From NCBI GenBank assembly GCA_002284895.1, contig CP015605.1, positions 62,001-126,000 of the forward strand: 64,000 nt of DNA, written 5' to 3'. The notes beneath the pieces are model-generated. The model ran no database searches and was not told the DNA's origin. It worked only from the letters and a program-made list of their open reading frames with translations. This DNA comes from Actinobacteria bacterium IMCC19121. Its GTDB lineage: Bacteria; Actinomycetota; Actinomycetes; Nanopelagicales; Nanopelagicaceae. The first letter of the stretch is position 1, and the number at the start of each line of letters is the position of its first letter. Below, piece by piece: positions 3,350 through 34,254 of the stretch. The translations under genes were made by a program, and so were the position numbers.

Positions 3350-4543
3350 TTACTTCTTAATCTTTGTAACGCGACCAGCACCTACTGTGCGGCCACCTTC
3401 ACGGATTGCGAAGCGAAGTCCTTCTTCCATAGCGATTGGCTGAATCAGTGTTACTGACATTTCAGTGTTATCGCCAGGCATAACCATTTCGGTTCCTGCT
3501 GGAAGAGTTACAACACCAGTCACGTCAGTTGTACGGAAGTAGAACTGTGGACGGTAGTTGTTGAAGAATGGTGTGTGACGTCCGCCTTCATCCTTTGAAA
3601 GGATGTATGCAGAAGCATCAAACTCTGTGTGAGGTGTGATTGATCCTGGCTTGCAAACAACCTGTCCACGCTCAACGTCTTCACGCTTTAGACCACGAAG
3701 AAGTAGTCCAACGTTCTCGCCTGCTTGACCTTCGTCGAGCAACTTACGGAACATTTCAACGCCTGTAACTGTTGTCTTTTGTGCAAGCTCGCGGATACCA
3801 ACGATTTCAACTTCTTCGTTGACCTTCACGATGCCGCGCTCAATACGTCCAGTGATAACTGTTCCACGACCTGTGATTGTGAAAACATCTTCAACTGGCA
3901 TAAGGAATGGCTTATCAACTTCACGTGCTGGCTGTGGAATAAATGAATCCACTGCATCCATAAGTTCGATGATCTTCTCGCCCCATGCAGCGTCTCCTTC
4001 GAGAGCCTTAAGTGCTGAGATGCGAACGATTGGAGTGTCATCGCCTGGGAACTCGTACTTAGATAGAAGTTCGCGAACTTCCATTTCAACGAGTTCAAGA
4101 ATTTCTTCGTCATCAACCATGTCTGACTTATTAAGTGCAACAACGATTGATGGAACGCCTACCTGACGAGCAAGGAGAACGTGCTCCTTTGTCTGTGGCA
4201 TTGGACCATCTGTAGCAGCTACGACGAGGATTGCTCCGTCCATCTGTGCAGCTCCAGTGATCATGTTCTTGATGTAGTCAGCGTGGCCTGGGCAGTCAAC
4301 GTGTGCGTAGTGACGCTTCTCTGTCTGGTACTCAATGTGAGCGATAGAGATTGTAATTCCGCGTTGACGCTCTTCTGGTGCCTTATCGATATCAGAGAAA
4401 GCTGTTGCTGCGTTAAGAGTTGGGTACTTGTCATGCAACACCTTGGAAATTGCCGCAGTAAGAGTTGTCTTACCGTGGTCAATGTGACCGATGGTGCCGA
4501 TGTTTACGTGCGGCTTTGTGCGCTCAAACTTGGCTTTTGCCAT
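3350..4543 (-). CDS. tuf: Elongation factor Tu
   Basis: The 397-residue product starts [29 protein letters not shown] and has GHIDHGKT (P-loop), DCPGH (G3), NKSD (G4) and SALKALEG (G5), then the beta-barrel domains ending [14 protein letters not shown]-Tu delivers aminoacyl-tRNA to the ribosome. It is the last gene of the str operon, 59 bases after fusA, with a GAGGAA ribosome-binding site. Confidence 0.99.
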
Positions 4544-28227: not shown

Positions 28228-29532
28228 TTAAAGTGCAGGAAGTGCATCCCATTGTGCTTGAGTGCTTTCAAGAATCTTTGTGAGATCTTTTGGATTCTTA
28301 AGGAAGCTCTGAATTGCTGGACCAACAACTGGGCCAGCAAAGTCACCGCGAGTATCGCGGTCAAGGAAGAAGCCGATGTTCTTAGCTGCGCCTAGAACTG
28401 CAAGCTTCTGCTTGTTGAATGCATCGTATGAAGATGTGTCGAAGTCGCTTGAGATGTAGATGTTTGTATCTCCAGCGGCAACTGCTGCATCAATACCTTC
28501 CTTGGATCCCAAGAATCCAGCTAGGTCTGCTCCACCTTCTGGGTTCTTACCATTTGCGGCAACTGAAATACCGTCAAGTGGTGCATCGATTGAGTCAATA
28601 CCGTGCTCTGGATTGATTTCTGGGAATGGAACGATCCATAGATCGTCGTAGTCTTCTTGTGACTTAGCCTTAAAGTCATTAGCAAACCATGAACCCATCA
28701 TCATGGCGCCGCACTTCTTCTGTAGTAGAAGATCGCGCATACCATCCCATGAGATATCAAGAACGTTCTTGTTCATGTAAGGAATCAATTGACCCATGTG
28801 TGTAAACACATCTACAACCTTGGCATCAGTCCACTTCTCTTTGCCGTTAAGCAAGTCAATGTGGAATTGGTATCCATTAAGACGCATGTTGAGAATATCG
28901 AATGTTCCCATTGCTTCCCAGCCGCCCTTGTCGCCAAGTGCGTAACCAACTAGACCCTTCTTCTGTGTAGCTTCACACAACTTGATGAGGTCATCCCATG
29001 TTGCAATGCTCTCTGGATTTAGACCCAATTCCTGCATTGTTGACTTACGGTAGTGAAGTCCCCATGGGTAATAAGTAGTAGGAATGATGTACTGCTTGCC
29101 GTCTGAAGGATTTGTAGCACCTTGGATTGCAGCAGCTGAAAGTGAACTACCGAGAGCCTTTACCTGATCAGAAACATCAGCTAGTAGGCCAGCATCAGCA
29201 CGTGCATTGGTGCGCCATCCGGCCATCCAACCAAATGCATCATCTGGAGTTCCTTGCATAATCTGAACGAAGTTATTCTGGAAGTCATCTGAGTTAACAG
29301 CTTGTGAAATAACTTTGTTGCCTGTCTTCTTTGTGTAAGCATCATTTGCTGCGATTGCAATCTTTGCTCCAGCATCACTTAGATTTCCACGAATTGTGAA
29401 GTGAACATCTCCGGTGACTTGCTTCTTTCCGCAACCTGCAAGAAGTGATCCACCAGCAACTAGTCCAGCTCCACCGATTGCAGCACCCTTAAGTACTGAA
29501 CGACGGGAAATGCCATTGTTTACATCTGACAT
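28228..29532 (-). CDS. Sugar ABC transporter substrate-binding lipoprotein
   Basis: From ATG at 29532 (AAGGA upstream) the product is 434 residues. The N-terminus ISRRSVLKGAAIGG is a Tat-type twin-Arg signal (R10-R11) that runs into the lipobox LLAGC (C34). The rest is a CUT1 (extracellular solute-binding family 1) protein with AFGWMAGWRTNARAD and KKCGAMMMGSWFAND. Substrate is not readable. A GntR-type operator lies upstream (29617-29627), which links it to the sulfosugar operons. Confidence 0.9.
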   Translation of the reverse strand: MSDVNNGISRRSVLKGAAIGGAGLVAGGSLLAGCGKKQVTGDVHFTIRGNLSDAGAKIAIAANDAYTKKTGNKVISQAVNSDDFQNNFVQIMQGTPDDAFGWMAGWRTNARADAGLLADVSDQVKALGSSLSAAAIQGATNPSDGKQYIIPTTYYPWGLHYRKSTMQELGLNPESIATWDDLIKLCEATQKKGLVGYALGDKGGWEAMGTFDILNMRLNGYQFHIDLLNGKEKWTDAKVVDVFTHMGQLIPYMNKNVLDISWDGMRDLLLQKKCGAMMMGSWFANDFKAKSQEDYDDLWIVPFPEINPEHGIDSIDAPLDGISVAANGKNPEGGADLAGFLGSKEGIDAAVAAGDTNIYISSDFDTSSYDAFNKQKLAVLGAAKNIGFFLDRDTRGDFAGPVVGPAIQSFLKNPKDLTKILESTQAQWDALPAL

Positions 29533-29616
29533 TGTTTTCCTTTTCTCTAGAGTTGAGCCTTTCGAAAGGTCATCAGGTATTGAAGGGGTCAAGGCCTGGT
29601 AACACGCTCAACCTAG

Positions 29617-29627: not shown

Positions 29628-29691
29628 GTGAACAGATAGGTCTAATAGGTAACGAATTGGTTACATTTACGCGTAAAATGCCGTTTTTTGG

Positions 29692-29862
29692 CTACTTTTT
29701 GCCACCAAAGAGCCGTGAGAGTAAACCCGGCTCTTTTGGGTCATTTTCATGGCCCTGACAGCGATCTTTTAAGGCCACACCCACCAAGGCCTGCTCAATA
29801 TGTTGGCCACAACCTGACCAGGTTGGCTTTGAACATTGATTGCATGTAACTCTTGAACACAT
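29692..29862 (-). CDS. 56-residue Cys-rich protein
   Basis: Reverse-strand reading from ATG at 29862 gives MCSRVTCNQCSKPTWSGCGQ, continues HIEQALVGVALKDRCQGHEN and ends LLSRLFGGKK. Cys at 2, 7, 10, 18 and 35 and His at 21 and 38 suggest a small metal site. I recall similar short proteins (CxxC with PTWxGCGxHIEQ) as conserved hypotheticals in many bacteria, but know no function. It starts 9 bases after the suyZ stop, so it is the last gene of the sulfolactate operon. A 9-bp inverted repeat lies inside its 3' codons (29707-29715 / 29728-29736). Confidence 0.8.
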   Translation of the reverse strand: MCSRVTCNQCSKPTWSGCGQHIEQALVGVALKDRCQGHENDPKEPGLLSRLFGGKK

Positions 29863-29871
29863 ATTTAGAGC

Positions 29872-30861
29872 CTATATCCCAGTGATGCGAACAGCAAGCA
29901 GCGCAACTCCAGCAACAATCACCCAAGCAATTAAGCCCATAACCATTGGACGTGCACCAATTGCTCGAATTGCTTTCCAACGCACGCCAGATCCAAGTGC
30001 AACTAAGCCAGCACCCAGTAATAGCTTGCTCGTGAGCACTACATCATCATGAACTCGTGTAGGAATTTCAAAAACATTTTGAATTATGGCAACTGCAATA
30101 AAGCCAAGAACGAAAAATGGGATAAGTGGAACCTTGGCAGAGTTTTCAGCACTTTGGCCTTGGGCCTTCAAATACTTGCGATGGCGCAGTGAGAGAATCA
30201 AAACAATTGGTGCTAGCAAACACACACGAGAGAGCTTGATAACAACTGCAGACTTAACTGCATCATCACTCCAAACAGATGCTGTTGCAATAACTTGGCC
30301 AACATCGTGTACTGCAGCACCTGCCCAAGCACCAAATGTTTGATCACTCAAACCCATTAAGTGGCCAAGGAAAGGCAATACAAAAATAGAGAGAGTTCCA
30401 CACAAAGAGATCAACCCAATTGCATACGAAGTCTCTTCCTCGGTCGCACGAGTTTGAGGACGAATTGCGGCCACTGCCGTTGCACCACAAACACCGAATC
30501 CAACACCAATAAGCAGACCTAATTCTCCACTCATCTTAAATAGTTTTGAAAGACCTAAGATTCCAAAAATTGTGAAGCTAACTACCAAAATCACTGTGAT
30601 TACGCCTTTAACTCCAATGGCTTTGAGTGAAACAACACTTACCTGAGCCCCTAGCAATGCAACGCCTATGCGCATTAACTTCTTACTCGAAAATGAAGTT
30701 CCAGCGGCGGCAAAAGCCGGCCATGAAGCAAAGTTTGCAATGATGAAGCCAAAGGCAACACATAGAGCTAGTGGGCTAATCGCCGGTTGAAAGTTGTGAA
30801 TTTGAAATGCCACTGCAACAACTACTGCGATTAGACCAAGGCCTGGAAGAGTTTTAGTCAT
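29872..30861 (-). CDS. suyZ: YeiH-family anion exporter, likely sulfite/sulfate exporter SuyZ
   Basis: The 329-residue membrane protein has about ten hydrophobic segments and the YeiH/YadS family patterns MRIGVALLGAQVSVVSLKAI, GVGFGVCGATAVAAIRPQTR and AWAGAAVHDVGQVIATA. In Paracoccus and other sulfolactate degraders a member of this family (SuyZ) is encoded beside suyAB and is thought to export the released sulfite or sulfate. The gene starts directly after the comC stop. Confidence 0.85.
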   Translation of the reverse strand: MTKTLPGLGLIAVVVAVAFQIHNFQPAISPLALCVAFGFIIANFASWPAFAAAGTSFSSKKLMRIGVALLGAQVSVVSLKAIGVKGVITVILVVSFTIFGILGLSKLFKMSGELGLLIGVGFGVCGATAVAAIRPQTRATEEETSYAIGLISLCGTLSIFVLPFLGHLMGLSDQTFGAWAGAAVHDVGQVIATASVWSDDAVKSAVVIKLSRVCLLAPIVLILSLRHRKYLKAQGQSAENSAKVPLIPFFVLGFIAVAIIQNVFEIPTRVHDDVVLTSKLLLGAGLVALGSGVRWKAIRAIGARPMVMGLIAWVIVAGVALLAVRITGI

Positions 30862-31869
30862 TTAGATACCGAGCTTTGTTGACCAGGTTTTCAGCTGCTC
30901 TGCCACTTGATCGGTGATTGTTATTTCATCACCATCATTGAGTTTCTCTGGATTCACACGGTTAGCACCCGGGAGGCGACCTCCAGCGCTATTAACACCT
31001 TGGGCGAACTCATTAGTTCTGTTGTTGCTTCCATTTACAGATAACTTGGATGCATCGATTGCAATGACAAAATGTGAAATCTGTTGCGGCAGCGCATCCT
31101 GGCTAGCTGCAAACATGTCAGGAATATTCTTTGCAAGAGTTGGACCAATCAACATTCCTGTCAGTGACTCAACTAGAACTGCAATTGCATAACCTTTGAC
31201 CCCACCTAATGGTGCAAGCATTCCAGCTAAAGCTTCCTTGGCATCTGTTGTTGGCGCGCCATCTTTTGTAAAAGCCCACCCAGGTTCAAGTTCGGCACCT
31301 GCTTGAGCTTTTGCTTGAATCTTTCCACGGGCAACCGCACTCGTTGCTAAATCAACTACTGTAGGTGGGTTGGTTGGAATACCTGCAGCAATGGGAGAAG
31401 TTGAAAGCAATGGTTGATTACCACCCCACGGTGGCATAACTGCAGGACCTGTACTAAATGCAATACCAACTAATCCGCGATTAATCATTGGCCAGACATA
31501 AATACCTAAAGCACCGCAGTGGTTAGAGCGCCCAACACCAACGGCGGCTATTCCATTGACCATCGCGCGCTCAGATGCAATTTCAGATGCTTTTTGTAAT
31601 TGCCAATGGCCCAATCCATCATCCCCATCAAAGACAACCAAACTTGGTAGATCTGTAACAGTCTTTAACTCTGCTTTTGGATTGATTCCACCTGCTTGCA
31701 GACGAGCCAGATAAAAAGGAAGGCGCATCAATCCATGGCTTCCAATTCCCCATCGATCACTTGCAACAATGCAACGAGCAGTTGTTGCTGCTTCTTGTGC
31801 AGGAACTCCGGCTGCTTCTAATAAAGATGTAGCCGTAGCGATTGCAGAACCAACGTTTAACTTAGGCAT
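30862..31869 (-). CDS. comC: (R)-sulfolactate dehydrogenase (ComC type, Ldh family)
   Basis: The 335-residue protein belongs to the malate/L-lactate/sulfolactate dehydrogenase family: SDRWGIGSHGLMRLPFYL, VGVGRSNHCGALGIYV with the family His, and GGVKGYAIAVLVESLTG. Family members oxidise 2-hydroxy acids with NAD(P). Placement between slcC and a YeiH exporter and downstream of suyAB matches ComC of bacterial sulfolactate pathways, which reduces sulfopyruvate to (R)-sulfolactate. The start shares one base with the slcC stop. Confidence 0.8.
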   Translation of the reverse strand: MPKLNVGSAIATATSLLEAAGVPAQEAATTARCIVASDRWGIGSHGLMRLPFYLARLQAGGINPKAELKTVTDLPSLVVFDGDDGLGHWQLQKASEIASERAMVNGIAAVGVGRSNHCGALGIYVWPMINRGLVGIAFSTGPAVMPPWGGNQPLLSTSPIAAGIPTNPPTVVDLATSAVARGKIQAKAQAGAELEPGWAFTKDGAPTTDAKEALAGMLAPLGGVKGYAIAVLVESLTGMLIGPTLAKNIPDMFAASQDALPQQISHFVIAIDASKLSVNGSNNRTNEFAQGVNSAGGRLPGANRVNPEKLNDGDEITITDQVAEQLKTWSTKLGI

Positions 31870-32807
31870 TAGTTACTACTTTCCTTTAATGCACCAACAG
31901 CATGAGTGGCTGGCTTGGAACTAAGAACCAACTCGATATTTGATGTAAGAATTTCATTTATCCGCAGTTGGCTTTGGCTAGTTATGCCAGCAACGTGGGG
32001 CGTAAGGATGAGGTTAGAAATAACTTCCATTTCACCTTTACTAGGTGGCTCTTGAGCGCGAACATCAAGTGCTGCCCCAGCAATAGTTTTTGCCTTTAAG
32101 GCAGAAATCAGATCTGCTTCATTAATAACTTCCCCACGACCAACATTGATGAGAATTGCCTCGGGCTTCATTAATGCAAGAGTTGCTGCATTAATGGTGC
32201 CGTTGGTTTCTGGCGTAGATGGCATATGAATGCTCACTACGTCGCTGCGCTTCAAAACATCTTCAAAAGTAGTTAATTCAATTCCTGAGAGATTTTTTGC
32301 ATATGGGTCATACCCAAGAACGTTGCAGTTAAAGCCTTGAATGAGTTTTGCTGTTGCAACTCCTGTGGCACCACAACCCAATAAGCCCCACGTCAGGCCA
32401 GAGAGTTCACGGCCAGGTGATCGCACCCAACCACCATCACGTGTTGCAACATTATGGCCTGGAATATTTCGAAGTAATGCAAGTGATAAACCTAGAGTTA
32501 ATTCACCAACGCTTACCGCATTTGCTCCAAGTCCAGCAACAACCACTACACCAGCTGCATCGGCTGCTTTGATATCAATATTATCTAGTCCAACTCCAGC
32601 ACGTGCTATGACTCGAAGCTTTGGAGCTGAAGCAATGACATCAGCTGTAACTTTGGTTCGATTTCTAACAACAAGTGCAGTTACATCTTTAAGAGACGCT
32701 TTGAGTTTTTCAGGATCACTCCACAGGTCATCATTTCGGATAATGGGAAAACTCCCTTCCAGCTCTTGGAAGGGAGTTCCCCATACATCTTCAGAAATGA
32801 GAATCAT
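31869..32807 (-). CDS. slcC: (S)-sulfolactate dehydrogenase (SlcC type, D-2-hydroxyacid dehydrogenase fold)
   Basis: The 312-residue protein is a phosphoglycerate-dehydrogenase-like enzyme with ARAGVGLDNIDIKAAD, the NAD site GLLGCGATGVATA, the catalytic Arg in NVGRGEVIN, Glu in DVRAQEPP and His in TPHVAGIT. It lacks the ACT domain of SerA and is short, as SlcC is. Known SlcC enzymes oxidise (S)-sulfolactate to sulfopyruvate with NAD. With ComC it would convert the S form into the R form used by SuyAB. Confidence 0.8.
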   Translation of the reverse strand: MILISEDVWGTPFQELEGSFPIIRNDDLWSDPEKLKASLKDVTALVVRNRTKVTADVIASAPKLRVIARAGVGLDNIDIKAADAAGVVVVAGLGANAVSVGELTLGLSLALLRNIPGHNVATRDGGWVRSPGRELSGLTWGLLGCGATGVATAKLIQGFNCNVLGYDPYAKNLSGIELTTFEDVLKRSDVVSIHMPSTPETNGTINAATLALMKPEAILINVGRGEVINEADLISALKAKTIAGAALDVRAQEPPSKGEMEVISNLILTPHVAGITSQSQLRINEILTSNIELVLSSKPATHAVGALKESSN

Positions 32808-33973
32808 TATGCAGAGATATACAACTTCGTGAATGTGAACTCGCGGTGACCCATAACTTCAGCCTTACATAGGCGACCATTAACAGTGTCATAAATGACA
32901 TCCATCATCATGTCGCCAGCCTTAGTTAGATCGTATTCGTAACGAAGTAATCCAGAAACATCTAGATCGATGTGCTCAGTCATTGACTTCGCAGTCTTGA
33001 TGTTTGCAGTCAACTTCAAAACCGGAACGATTGGGTTACCGATTACGTTTCCTTGTCCTGTTGGGAACAAGTGAATAACCGCGCCGCCAGCAGCCATCAG
33101 AGTTACGCACTCTGCTGCAGCCGATGATGAGTCCATGAAATACAAGCCAGGCTTTGATGCACTTGGCATTTCGGCGGGCTTGAGAACACCCACAACTGGC
33201 ACAGAGCCAGTTTTTGCGATGTTTCCAAGTGCCTTCTCTTCAATAGTTGTTAAGCCACCAGCAATATTGCCCTGTGTTGGCTGTGAGCCAAGAAGGTTTG
33301 CACCAGTTGCTTCAATAACTTTGATGTAGTTGTCGTATGTCAATTGGAACAAATCACGTGTAGCGGCATCAATGCAACGCTCTGCAATGAGGTGCTCGCC
33401 ACCAGTTAACTCTGAAGTTTCACCAAAGAAAACAGTTCCGCCTGCATCAACCCATCGGTCTACGGCTTGTGAAGTAGTTGGGCAAGAACCAAGACCAGAC
33501 GTTGTGTCTGACTCTCCGCACTTGATTGACATAATCATGTCGCCCATTTCAGCTTCTGTGCGAACAAGACCTGATGCATCTTGTAAGAACATTGCTGCAA
33601 CACGGCTAGCTTCTTGAATAACTTGTAGGTCGCCCTTGCCTTCAATTGAAAATGCTGCAACTGGCTTTCCAGTCTTTGCAATTCCATCAGCAACTCTTTG
33701 AGTCCACTTTGGTTCGATACCTATGACAACTACTGCTGCAACGTTTGCATTAACGCCAGTACCGATAAGTGTGTCGAAAGTAAGTTGTAAATCTTCACCA
33801 AACTGCAAGCGCCCGAAAGCGTGAGGTAGAGCTAATGTGCCAGGAATAACTTTTGCGACAGCTTCAGCAGCTGCATTTGAAAGGTCATCGAGAGGCAAAA
33901 TAATGACGTGATTGCGGATACCCATAGTGCCGTTTTCACGGCGGTATCCCATTAAGCGCGGCTTGCTTCCCAT
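32807..33973 (-). CDS. suyB: (R)-sulfolactate sulfo-lyase, large subunit
   Basis: The 388-residue protein is the altronate-dehydratase (UxaA C-terminal) fold: GYRRENGTMGIRNHVIILPL at the N-terminus, SIKCGESDTTSGLGSCP at 149-165 with two Cys for a metal/Fe-S site, and FPTGQGNVIGNPIVPVLK. SuyB with SuyA splits (R)-sulfolactate into pyruvate and sulfite. Hexuronate use is the alternative, but the flanking slcC, comC and YeiH exporter argue for sulfolactate. It overlaps suyA by 22 bases and slcC by 1. Confidence 0.85.
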   Translation of the reverse strand: MGSKPRLMGYRRENGTMGIRNHVIILPLDDLSNAAAEAVAKVIPGTLALPHAFGRLQFGEDLQLTFDTLIGTGVNANVAAVVVIGIEPKWTQRVADGIAKTGKPVAAFSIEGKGDLQVIQEASRVAAMFLQDASGLVRTEAEMGDMIMSIKCGESDTTSGLGSCPTTSQAVDRWVDAGGTVFFGETSELTGGEHLIAERCIDAATRDLFQLTYDNYIKVIEATGANLLGSQPTQGNIAGGLTTIEEKALGNIAKTGSVPVVGVLKPAEMPSASKPGLYFMDSSSAAAECVTLMAAGGAVIHLFPTGQGNVIGNPIVPVLKLTANIKTAKSMTEHIDLDVSGLLRYEYDLTKAGDMMMDVIYDTVNGRLCKAEVMGHREFTFTKLYISA

Positions 33974-34254
33974 CGATAACTCCTCATGTTGTGTGTGTGA
34001 ATGTAATCGCCCTTTTTAATGGCAGCTGATGCAAGTCCGACCTTGATGCCGTACTTAATAATTGAGTCACCCTCAGCAAGATCTGTGAGTGCAAATTTGT
34101 GTCCTAGAGGAATCGCGTGGTTTAAAACCGCGGTGCTCTCTGTTCCTTCTTTTACCGAACGCCCTTGCAGGGTTCCAGGTTGCAGATCTGTCATCGCAAC
34201 GGCAACGTTGTCGCCATCATGATGGAGCAGGAACTGCGGTGGTGTTATTGCCAT
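33952..34254 (-). CDS. suyA: (R)-sulfolactate sulfo-lyase, small subunit
   Basis: The 100-residue protein is a stand-alone SAF domain (UxaA N-terminal type): FLLHHDGDNVAVAMTDLQPG, HAIPLGHKFALTDLAEGD and IIKYGIKVGLASAAIKKGDY, ending near YIHTHNMRS. In SuyA this domain partners SuyB in C-S bond cleavage. First gene of the suyA-suyB-slcC-comC-suyZ operon, divergent from the Gfo/Idh gene, with operator-like palindromes between them. Confidence 0.85.
   Translation of the reverse strand: MAITPPQFLLHHDGDNVAVAMTDLQPGTLQGRSVKEGTESTAVLNHAIPLGHKFALTDLAEGDSIIKYGIKVGLASAAIKKGDYIHTHNMRSYRWEASRA

Follow-up and report, generated by a model that had tools for sequence, protein, structure and literature searches.

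The window analysed here, a stretch of 64,000 nucleotides from Actinobacteria bacterium IMCC19121, carries on its minus strand a run of sulfolactate genes followed by a very short open reading frame. The run comprises genes for a SuyA-like small part (SAF domain, 33952-34254) and a SuyB-like large part (GD_AH family, 32807-33973) of a sulfolactate sulfo-lyase, an SlcC-like 2-hydroxyacid dehydrogenase (31869-32807), a ComC-like sulfolactate dehydrogenase of the Ldh_2 family (30862-31869) and a putative anion/sulfite exporter of the YeiH family (29872-30861). The names SuyAB, SlcC and ComC rest on domains, on the gene set and on the pathway as given in the accessible part of PMC12421959; the ComC-like protein reaches 200 bits against NF040650, below the cut-off of 500, and the exporter lies above the cut-off of PF03601 and, with 181 bits, below that of TIGR00698 (232.6). 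The short frame (29692-29862, minus strand) starts with ATG, encodes 56 amino acids and is separated from the stop codon of the exporter gene by nine bases (29863-29871), just as the original prediction had placed it. This spacing suggests that the small gene is co-transcribed with the sulfolactate and YeiH genes. Downstream lies the gene for a sugar-ABC substrate-binding protein (28228-29592, minus strand), the right edge of the site at which relatives carry a persulfide operon.

An inverted repeat (29707-29736, arms AAAGAGCCG/CGGCTCTTT) lies within the last codons of the small gene and had been proposed as the end structure of the operon. The repeat is present in the window, but its stem is not conserved in the syntenic copies, since locus L159 has lost the inner pairs and L169 does not form it. 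On the coding strand no T run follows it, and the two terminator-like sites returned by a scan of this region both belong to the plus strand, the minus strand having none, so that the proposal found no support. A separate palindrome, GTAACCAATTCGTTAC (minus strand, 29649-29664), is located in the gap that separates the small gene from the gene for the sugar-ABC binding protein. It recurs in the same or nearly the same form in L159, L169, L157 and L054, was not found in L047 and L052, and is possibly an operator of the sugar operon.

The 56-residue protein holds C2, C7, C10, C18 and C35 together with H21 and H38, that is, the five cysteines and two histidines within 38 residues that had been noticed at the outset. 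A high cysteine count is in itself weak evidence for a gene, because 5 of 93 ATG-started frames of 45-70 amino acids in the window also have at least five cysteines in their first 38 residues. Conservation is far more telling. Relatives of the gene occur in 123 of the 151 sampled genomes of the host family and in 78 of the 84 high-quality ones; among the 28 genomes without it, 20 are named and the other eight are those missing among the positives. Comparison of the window gene with the syntenic copies in L159 and L169 gives dN/dS values of 0.13-0.23 over few sites. On conservation grounds the frame is a genuine gene, and it is under purifying selection, having apparently kept a function.

The relatives share the pattern MC-x4-C-x2-C-x-K-x2-W-x-GCG-x-H, followed by C35 and by either C37 or H38. 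In an alignment of 55 members, the window protein included, twelve columns are invariant (M1, C2, C7, C10, K12, W15, G17, C18, G19, H21, R34 and C35). A larger set of 189 distinct members was taken from the fetched loci with a pattern requiring C2, C7, C10, W or F at 15, G17, C18, G19 and H21; C35, which lies outside that search pattern, is kept in all 189. C37 is found in 81 of these members and H38 in 108, one or the other being present in every one. Such an exchange of cysteine and histidine is typical of metal ligands and points to a metal-site-like protein, so that the small protein probably binds metal. The suggestion of a general conserved small zinc protein is thus favoured as far as the invariant cysteines and histidines and the exchange at 37/38 go (189/189), zinc itself being predicted only.

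Members of the family measure about 37-60 residues, and several loci carry more than one copy, in forms that we call A, B and C. Form A has about 56 residues and a tail of the LLSRLF type, form C has 37-40 residues with a CxC close to the end, and form B is located behind form A. Some A forms with SKI or SKM tails bore the script label 'SMALL_B' and were counted as A by tail and place. The window protein belongs to the long form A, although its first codons resemble those of the short form C. An AlphaFold model (mean pLDDT 81.6, pTM 0.54) consists of a hairpin and a short helix, the tail helix LLSRLF being of lower confidence. Foldseek returned no match with an E-value below 6.8 for this model, and VIA-align no Z-score of 2 or more among 17 aligned chains.

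Comparison with Pfam, NCBIfam, PHROGs and PDB gave no convincing match for the small protein. Curated cut-offs were applied to the family libraries, with the E-value used for PHROGs, which has none, and all matches listed for the window protein fall under the cut-off. The best E-values over the 55 members are 0.038 (Pfam), 0.0036 (NCBIfam) and 0.046 (PHROGs), each from one member; the NCBIfam value would name cytochrome cL, an identity rejected as it concerns 1 of 55 members and lies far below the cut-off. The Pfam zinc fingers C5HCH and zf-C5HC2 are likewise Cys/His-rich domains of about 50 residues, but their matches (E 0.05-0.06, in 3 of 55 members) are far below cut-off and the small proteins are not members. 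Searches of the open-access literature with motif peptides and a PANTHER number gave no match. The family is not described in the open-access literature searched or in the tested family libraries. Similar short proteins may also occur in eukaryotes.

Within the phylum sample the family is patchy, with members in 37 of 296 genomes. No annotated feature lies under the small gene in the 20 plasmid matches listed, for which the gene table is incomplete. The sole phage match is a relative of 49% identity at MT835623.1 19139-19297 (L043), in an unannotated 'Bacteriophage sp.' record from faeces that may be a misassigned bacterial contig.

The genomic surroundings of the relatives were examined in two sets of loci. 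The named loci represent the top 80 among 575 confirmed ones; near relatives of the window are over-represented among them, and many have flanks below 6 kb. The 20 phylum loci, from 19 genomes (G188 is represented twice), were hand-picked from 40 matches in the phylum sample on the requirement that their contig extend far enough to place a control region at a distance of 60 kb in the same genome; the match of the window itself and another (third) copy in G188 also qualified and were left out, and one locus is limited to 8.5 kb by its contig end. Profiles for 11 classes of neighbour were built from genes of the named loci and scanned. Seven of them (CsoR, rhodanese, the CoA-disulfide/persulfide-reductase-like enzyme CoADR, TauE, the persulfide dioxygenase PDO, SQR-like and YeiH) were treated as core classes. 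The label SQR-like was given by eye, Pfam yielding Pyr_redox_2 only, and the PDO profile represents the metallo-beta-lactamase part (19 matches), an earlier profile with 152 matches having been set aside as probably contaminated by rhodanese domains.

The commonest neighbours in the named loci are a flavin disulfide reductase of the CoADR type, of which the member scanned with Pfam has Pyr_redox_2, dimerisation and Rhodanese domains, and a CsoR-family repressor. At least one core class, as chosen after the first counts had been seen, has a member close to the small gene in 13/20 phylum loci against 0/20 controls (p = 1.3e-5); among the named loci this holds for 65/80. If YeiH and the SQR-like class are set aside, these figures become 13/20, 0/20 and 63/80; with all 11 classes they are 13/20, 1/20 and 65/80, the single control match being a DUF302 gene, a class found near 3 of 20 phylum loci. 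By class, the phylum loci and controls (20 each) differ most in CsoR (12 against 0), rhodanese (10 against 0) and CoADR (6 against 0), followed by TauE (5 against 0) and persulfide dioxygenase (4 against 0). Thioredoxin is a neighbour of the small gene in 21/80 named loci but in only one of the 20 phylum loci. Plasmid copies from Clavibacter and Rhodococcus have a rhodanese in the same stretch, together with either TauE or both a CsoR-type repressor and a flavoprotein. Against a regulon reading, none of these sulfur genes lies nearby in 7/20 phylum loci and 15/80 named loci. Altogether, the small Cys/His proteins appear to form a previously undescribed family that in actinobacteria is often encoded near genes of reactive-sulfur detoxification.

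YeiH itself is a rare neighbour, present in 4 of 80 named loci and in none of the 20 phylum loci or their controls. Across the 151 genomes of the host family, the small gene is found in 45 of 50 YeiH-positive and 78 of 101 YeiH-negative genomes, a difference that is not significant (p = 0.07). The expectation that homologues travel with the exporter was therefore not borne out, and a partner role specific to YeiH was rejected on this rarity and on the keeping of the gene in YeiH-less genomes. Of the suggested tie to sulfite handling, what stands is a link to persulfides (sulfane sulfur), with sulfite export by TauE as a possible last step, and what falls is YeiH as such. The original prediction would have regarded the gene as a chance neighbour if its homologues had no link to anion exporters; YeiH is indeed a local neighbour, yet relatives carry the persulfide operon at the same spot.

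The repressors linked to the small gene can be classed by their residues. A C-x28-C pair is present in 70 of the 71 distinct CsoR proteins from the fetched loci, and none of the 71 has a histidine four positions before the second cysteine. Such a histidine marks copper-sensing CsoR. The Cys31/Cys60 pair of CstR, as given in the accessible part of PMC9774590, has the spacing found here, and by sequence the linked proteins class with the persulfide-sensing repressors. PMC7533328 gives ATACCN6GGTAT as the operator of the CsoR that responds to sulfane sulfur in S. coelicolor. Of the 80 named loci 52 contain this operator, as do 14 of the 20 phylum loci, and it is missing from all 20 controls; shortened by one base per side, it is found in 58/80, 15/20 and 1/20, respectively. 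In the window, the strict form is absent from the spacer before the small gene and everywhere else.

Among the 100 loci, 13 have the operator 28-57 nt ahead of the matched small gene, and in three further loci (L180, L183 and L185) it runs into the start codon (GGT|ATG), an overlap that would suit a leaderless mRNA. Nine of these 16 operator-bearing genes are solitary (L101, L112, L113, L116, L121, L180, L183, L185 and L188), their fetched flanks containing no sulfur gene. In a test of 30 genomes, a CsoR-family gene is encoded elsewhere in 9 of 9 genomes with such a solitary operator-bearing copy, against 4 of 18 with a copy lacking the strict operator (p = 1.5e-4, uncorrected for kinship; G188, which has a linked CsoR, and the operon-bearing L052 and L054 stand outside the comparison). 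One of those four CsoR-positive genomes, that of L120, has a shortened operator site. An operator before solitary copies, with CsoR elsewhere in the genome, argues for the small gene as a regulon member and not a mere neighbour. The family thus very probably recurs as part of the CstR-type sulfane-sulfur regulon in Actinomycetota. In L054 the small C gene (3553-3663) overlaps the start of the CsoR gene, which suggests translational coupling of small protein and repressor.

Within the host family the small gene extends beyond the sensor and the enzymes. It is present in every one of the 57 CsoR-positive and the 54 CoADR-positive genomes, as well as in 66 of 94 genomes lacking CsoR and 69 of 97 lacking CoADR, so that its product must be useful without those proteins. 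It is directly downstream of CoADR at no fewer than 42 of 57 CoADR places, a lower bound as part of the weaker short small-gene matches was omitted from the count; no neighbour is listed at 13 places, some being cut by a contig end and others having the small gene on a separate contig. The window genome (G000) belongs to the keepers. A search of it for CsoR found none, and it has no CoADR orthologue, the best E-value being 9.5e-10; among the 54 CoADR-positive genomes, 53 score at 1e-176 or lower and the remaining one has a fragment at 5e-75. Its small gene has no CsoR-type operator, and the one match elsewhere in the genome is an unlikely one. With regulator and operator both absent, the window copy is best read as only a former member of a CstR-type regulon. 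The window genome has just two rhodanese-domain matches (G000:C1:666937-667215 and 772316-772603; L235 and L236), in a MoeB/ThiF-like fusion and a TrhO-like protein, both named by eye; these proteins are candidate sulfur donors for the orphaned small protein.

How the gene came to stand behind an exporter can be followed from locus to locus. In L054 the order is SuyB-SlcC-ComC-YeiH, small C, CsoR, a rhodanese lipoprotein, CoADR, small A, ICMT, thioredoxin, a methyltransferase and the sugar-ABC genes. G103 has this order without a matched methyltransferase, G127 has it as far as CoADR, where the contig ends, and G051 has only small C, CsoR, CoADR and small A. The window, L159 and L169 have YeiH, then the small gene and the sugar-ABC genes, and in L103 too the small gene is directly behind YeiH. 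A midpoint-rooted tree for 11 loci, built on the sugar-ABC proteins and the adjoining gene, pairs the operon-less L047 with the operon-bearing L054 (support 100) and the window clade with the operon-bearing L052 (99). Two separate losses at the same place are therefore the simplest history, and loss of the operon in the window lineage is quite probable, a gain being less parsimonious. The small gene of L047 combines a C-type body with an A-type tail and keeps before it an operator that is two bases shorter, and CsoR was not found in that genome. The window copy matches C of L054 at 27 of its first 30 bases, against 17 of 30 for A of L054, and has an A tail with a middle that is ambiguous between the two. 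A fusion of C head and A tail is accordingly clear in L047 and ambiguous in the window copy, where it would rest on those first 30 bases. A second site shows a comparable pair of arrangements, with the operon between FUSC and QOR in L064, L068, L072 and L075, and only small C between the same genes in L154, L155, L156, L158, L160 and L162, where the persulfide operon is absent.

These observations can be combined into one explanation. The family itself, its regulon linkage and operator, the missing regulator and reductase and the purifying selection are computed results; the direction of loss, the metal, the persulfide and the partner are inferred. Close relatives show the order SuyAB-SlcC-ComC-YeiH, small C, CsoR/CstR, rhodanese, CoA-disulfide/persulfide reductase, small A, (ICMT, thioredoxin, methyltransferase) and sugar ABC. 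The window lineage would have lost the middle part, regulator and operator included, so that a single small gene remained behind YeiH and hence inside the sulfite-producing operon. The Cys/His set of the protein would bind a metal ion, and one or more of the cysteines may take up sulfane sulfur, so that the protein would buffer or relay persulfide. Thioredoxin might reset it, although its rarity near the phylum loci (1 of 20) counts against this partner, or alternatively sulfite might drain the sulfane sulfur to thiosulfate, and such a buffering job could still be useful once the operon enzymes were gone. We give an even chance to this explanation as a whole, in which a member of a CstR-type regulon was left behind YeiH by operon loss and works as a metal- or persulfide-binding buffer or relay. 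That the small protein carries sulfane sulfur is possible but somewhat doubtful.

Other readings of the same gene have to be weighed against this one. The strongest of them takes the protein for a zinc-binding adaptor or small regulator, one whose fold is held by metal and which would dock on a rhodanese, the reductase or a housekeeping partner, carrying no sulfur itself. The conservation of K12, W15, G17 and G19 beside seven possible ligands would suit it, as would the predicted hairpin and helix with a separate, low-confidence tail helix and the keeping of the gene once the enzymes are lost; but the supposed partners are missing in many keepers, the 69 CoADR-less genomes among them, and the cysteines are more than one zinc site needs, which leaves this reading rather unlikely. 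A quite different role, that of a cysteine-sensing leader peptide (attenuator), draws on the 37-residue C form of L054, which stands first in its operon and overlaps the start of CsoR. Form A is located behind the reductase, however, conservation extends to K12, W15, G17, G19 and H21, which are not cysteines, and the nine solitary operator-bearing copies precede no sulfur gene in their fetched flanks, so that this role was rejected as scarcely credible. For the window copy in particular, the loss of operon, regulator and operator could mean a dying relic without function. Its dN/dS values, its fully intact ligands and the presence of the family in nearly all high-quality genomes (78/84) speak against decay and make it very improbable.

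Two further possibilities start from the surroundings of the gene. Since sulfite reacts with sulfane sulfur to give thiosulfate, the window copy might have been captured by the sulfolactate operon for the sulfite or thiosulfate produced there, in line with the nine-base gap shared by the window, L159 and L169 and with the adjacency in L103. The family-wide link to YeiH is not significant, though, and the YeiH-less G016, G040, G061, G079, G109 and G145 keep the gene behind FUSC or glnQ, so that capture is improbable. The same small chance is left for a soft-metal sponge or chaperone, in this case for copper, within a CsoR copper regulon, and we count this reading as rejected. It appeals to the CsoR family and a C-rich operator, both common to copper repressors in the accessible parts of PMC10318464 and PMC7533328, to the cysteine-rich small protein and to the annotation 'metal-sensitive' of the Clavibacter plasmid repressor adjoining the small gene. 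Against it, the histidine of copper sensors is lacking from all 71 linked repressors, the recurrent neighbours are sulfurtransferases and persulfide enzymes, and the P-type ATPase signature DKTGT occurs in none of the 80 named and 20 phylum loci.

Among known systems, the loci resemble the CstR/ScCsoR regulons, represented by the cst operon of S. aureus and the CsoR-PDO-TauE cluster of S. coelicolor. Both sides have a CsoR-family repressor with a cysteine pair, persulfide dioxygenase, TauE, rhodanese and the ATACCN6GGTAT operator (accessible parts of PMC7533328, PMC9774590 and PMC10318464). Unlike the regulons as these portions describe them, the loci here have a recurrent small Cys/His protein that often survives the loss of the rest. 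A functional analogy, with no sequence relation claimed, is offered by GIF/metallothionein-3 of mouse, a small cysteine-rich zinc protein in which, according to PMC12618007, zinc and persulfide share cysteines and thioredoxin resets the protein. The mycobacterial cysteine-rich uORFs, proposed as cysteine-sensing attenuators in PMC4633059, are likewise tiny cysteine-containing frames ahead of sulfur genes, but the family described here is conserved over the whole protein and is often not first in its operon.

Persulfide regulons have so far been described as consisting of sensor, sulfurtransferase, dioxygenase or reductase and exporter, to which a small and easily missed component is now added, one that in the host family is more widespread than the sensor and the reductase. 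The link of the window gene to the YeiH exporter is local history. The family offers a test case for whether bacteria buffer reactive sulfur by means of a small protein; that it represents a dedicated sulfane-sulfur buffer or carrier, kept by streamlined freshwater actinobacteria after losing sensor and reductase, is at present a tentative and rather doubtful proposal. The four acI freshwater strains covered in the accessible part of PMC5301498 have no assimilatory sulfate reduction, and the small gene is a clue to how this group of freshwater actinobacteria handles its sulfur.
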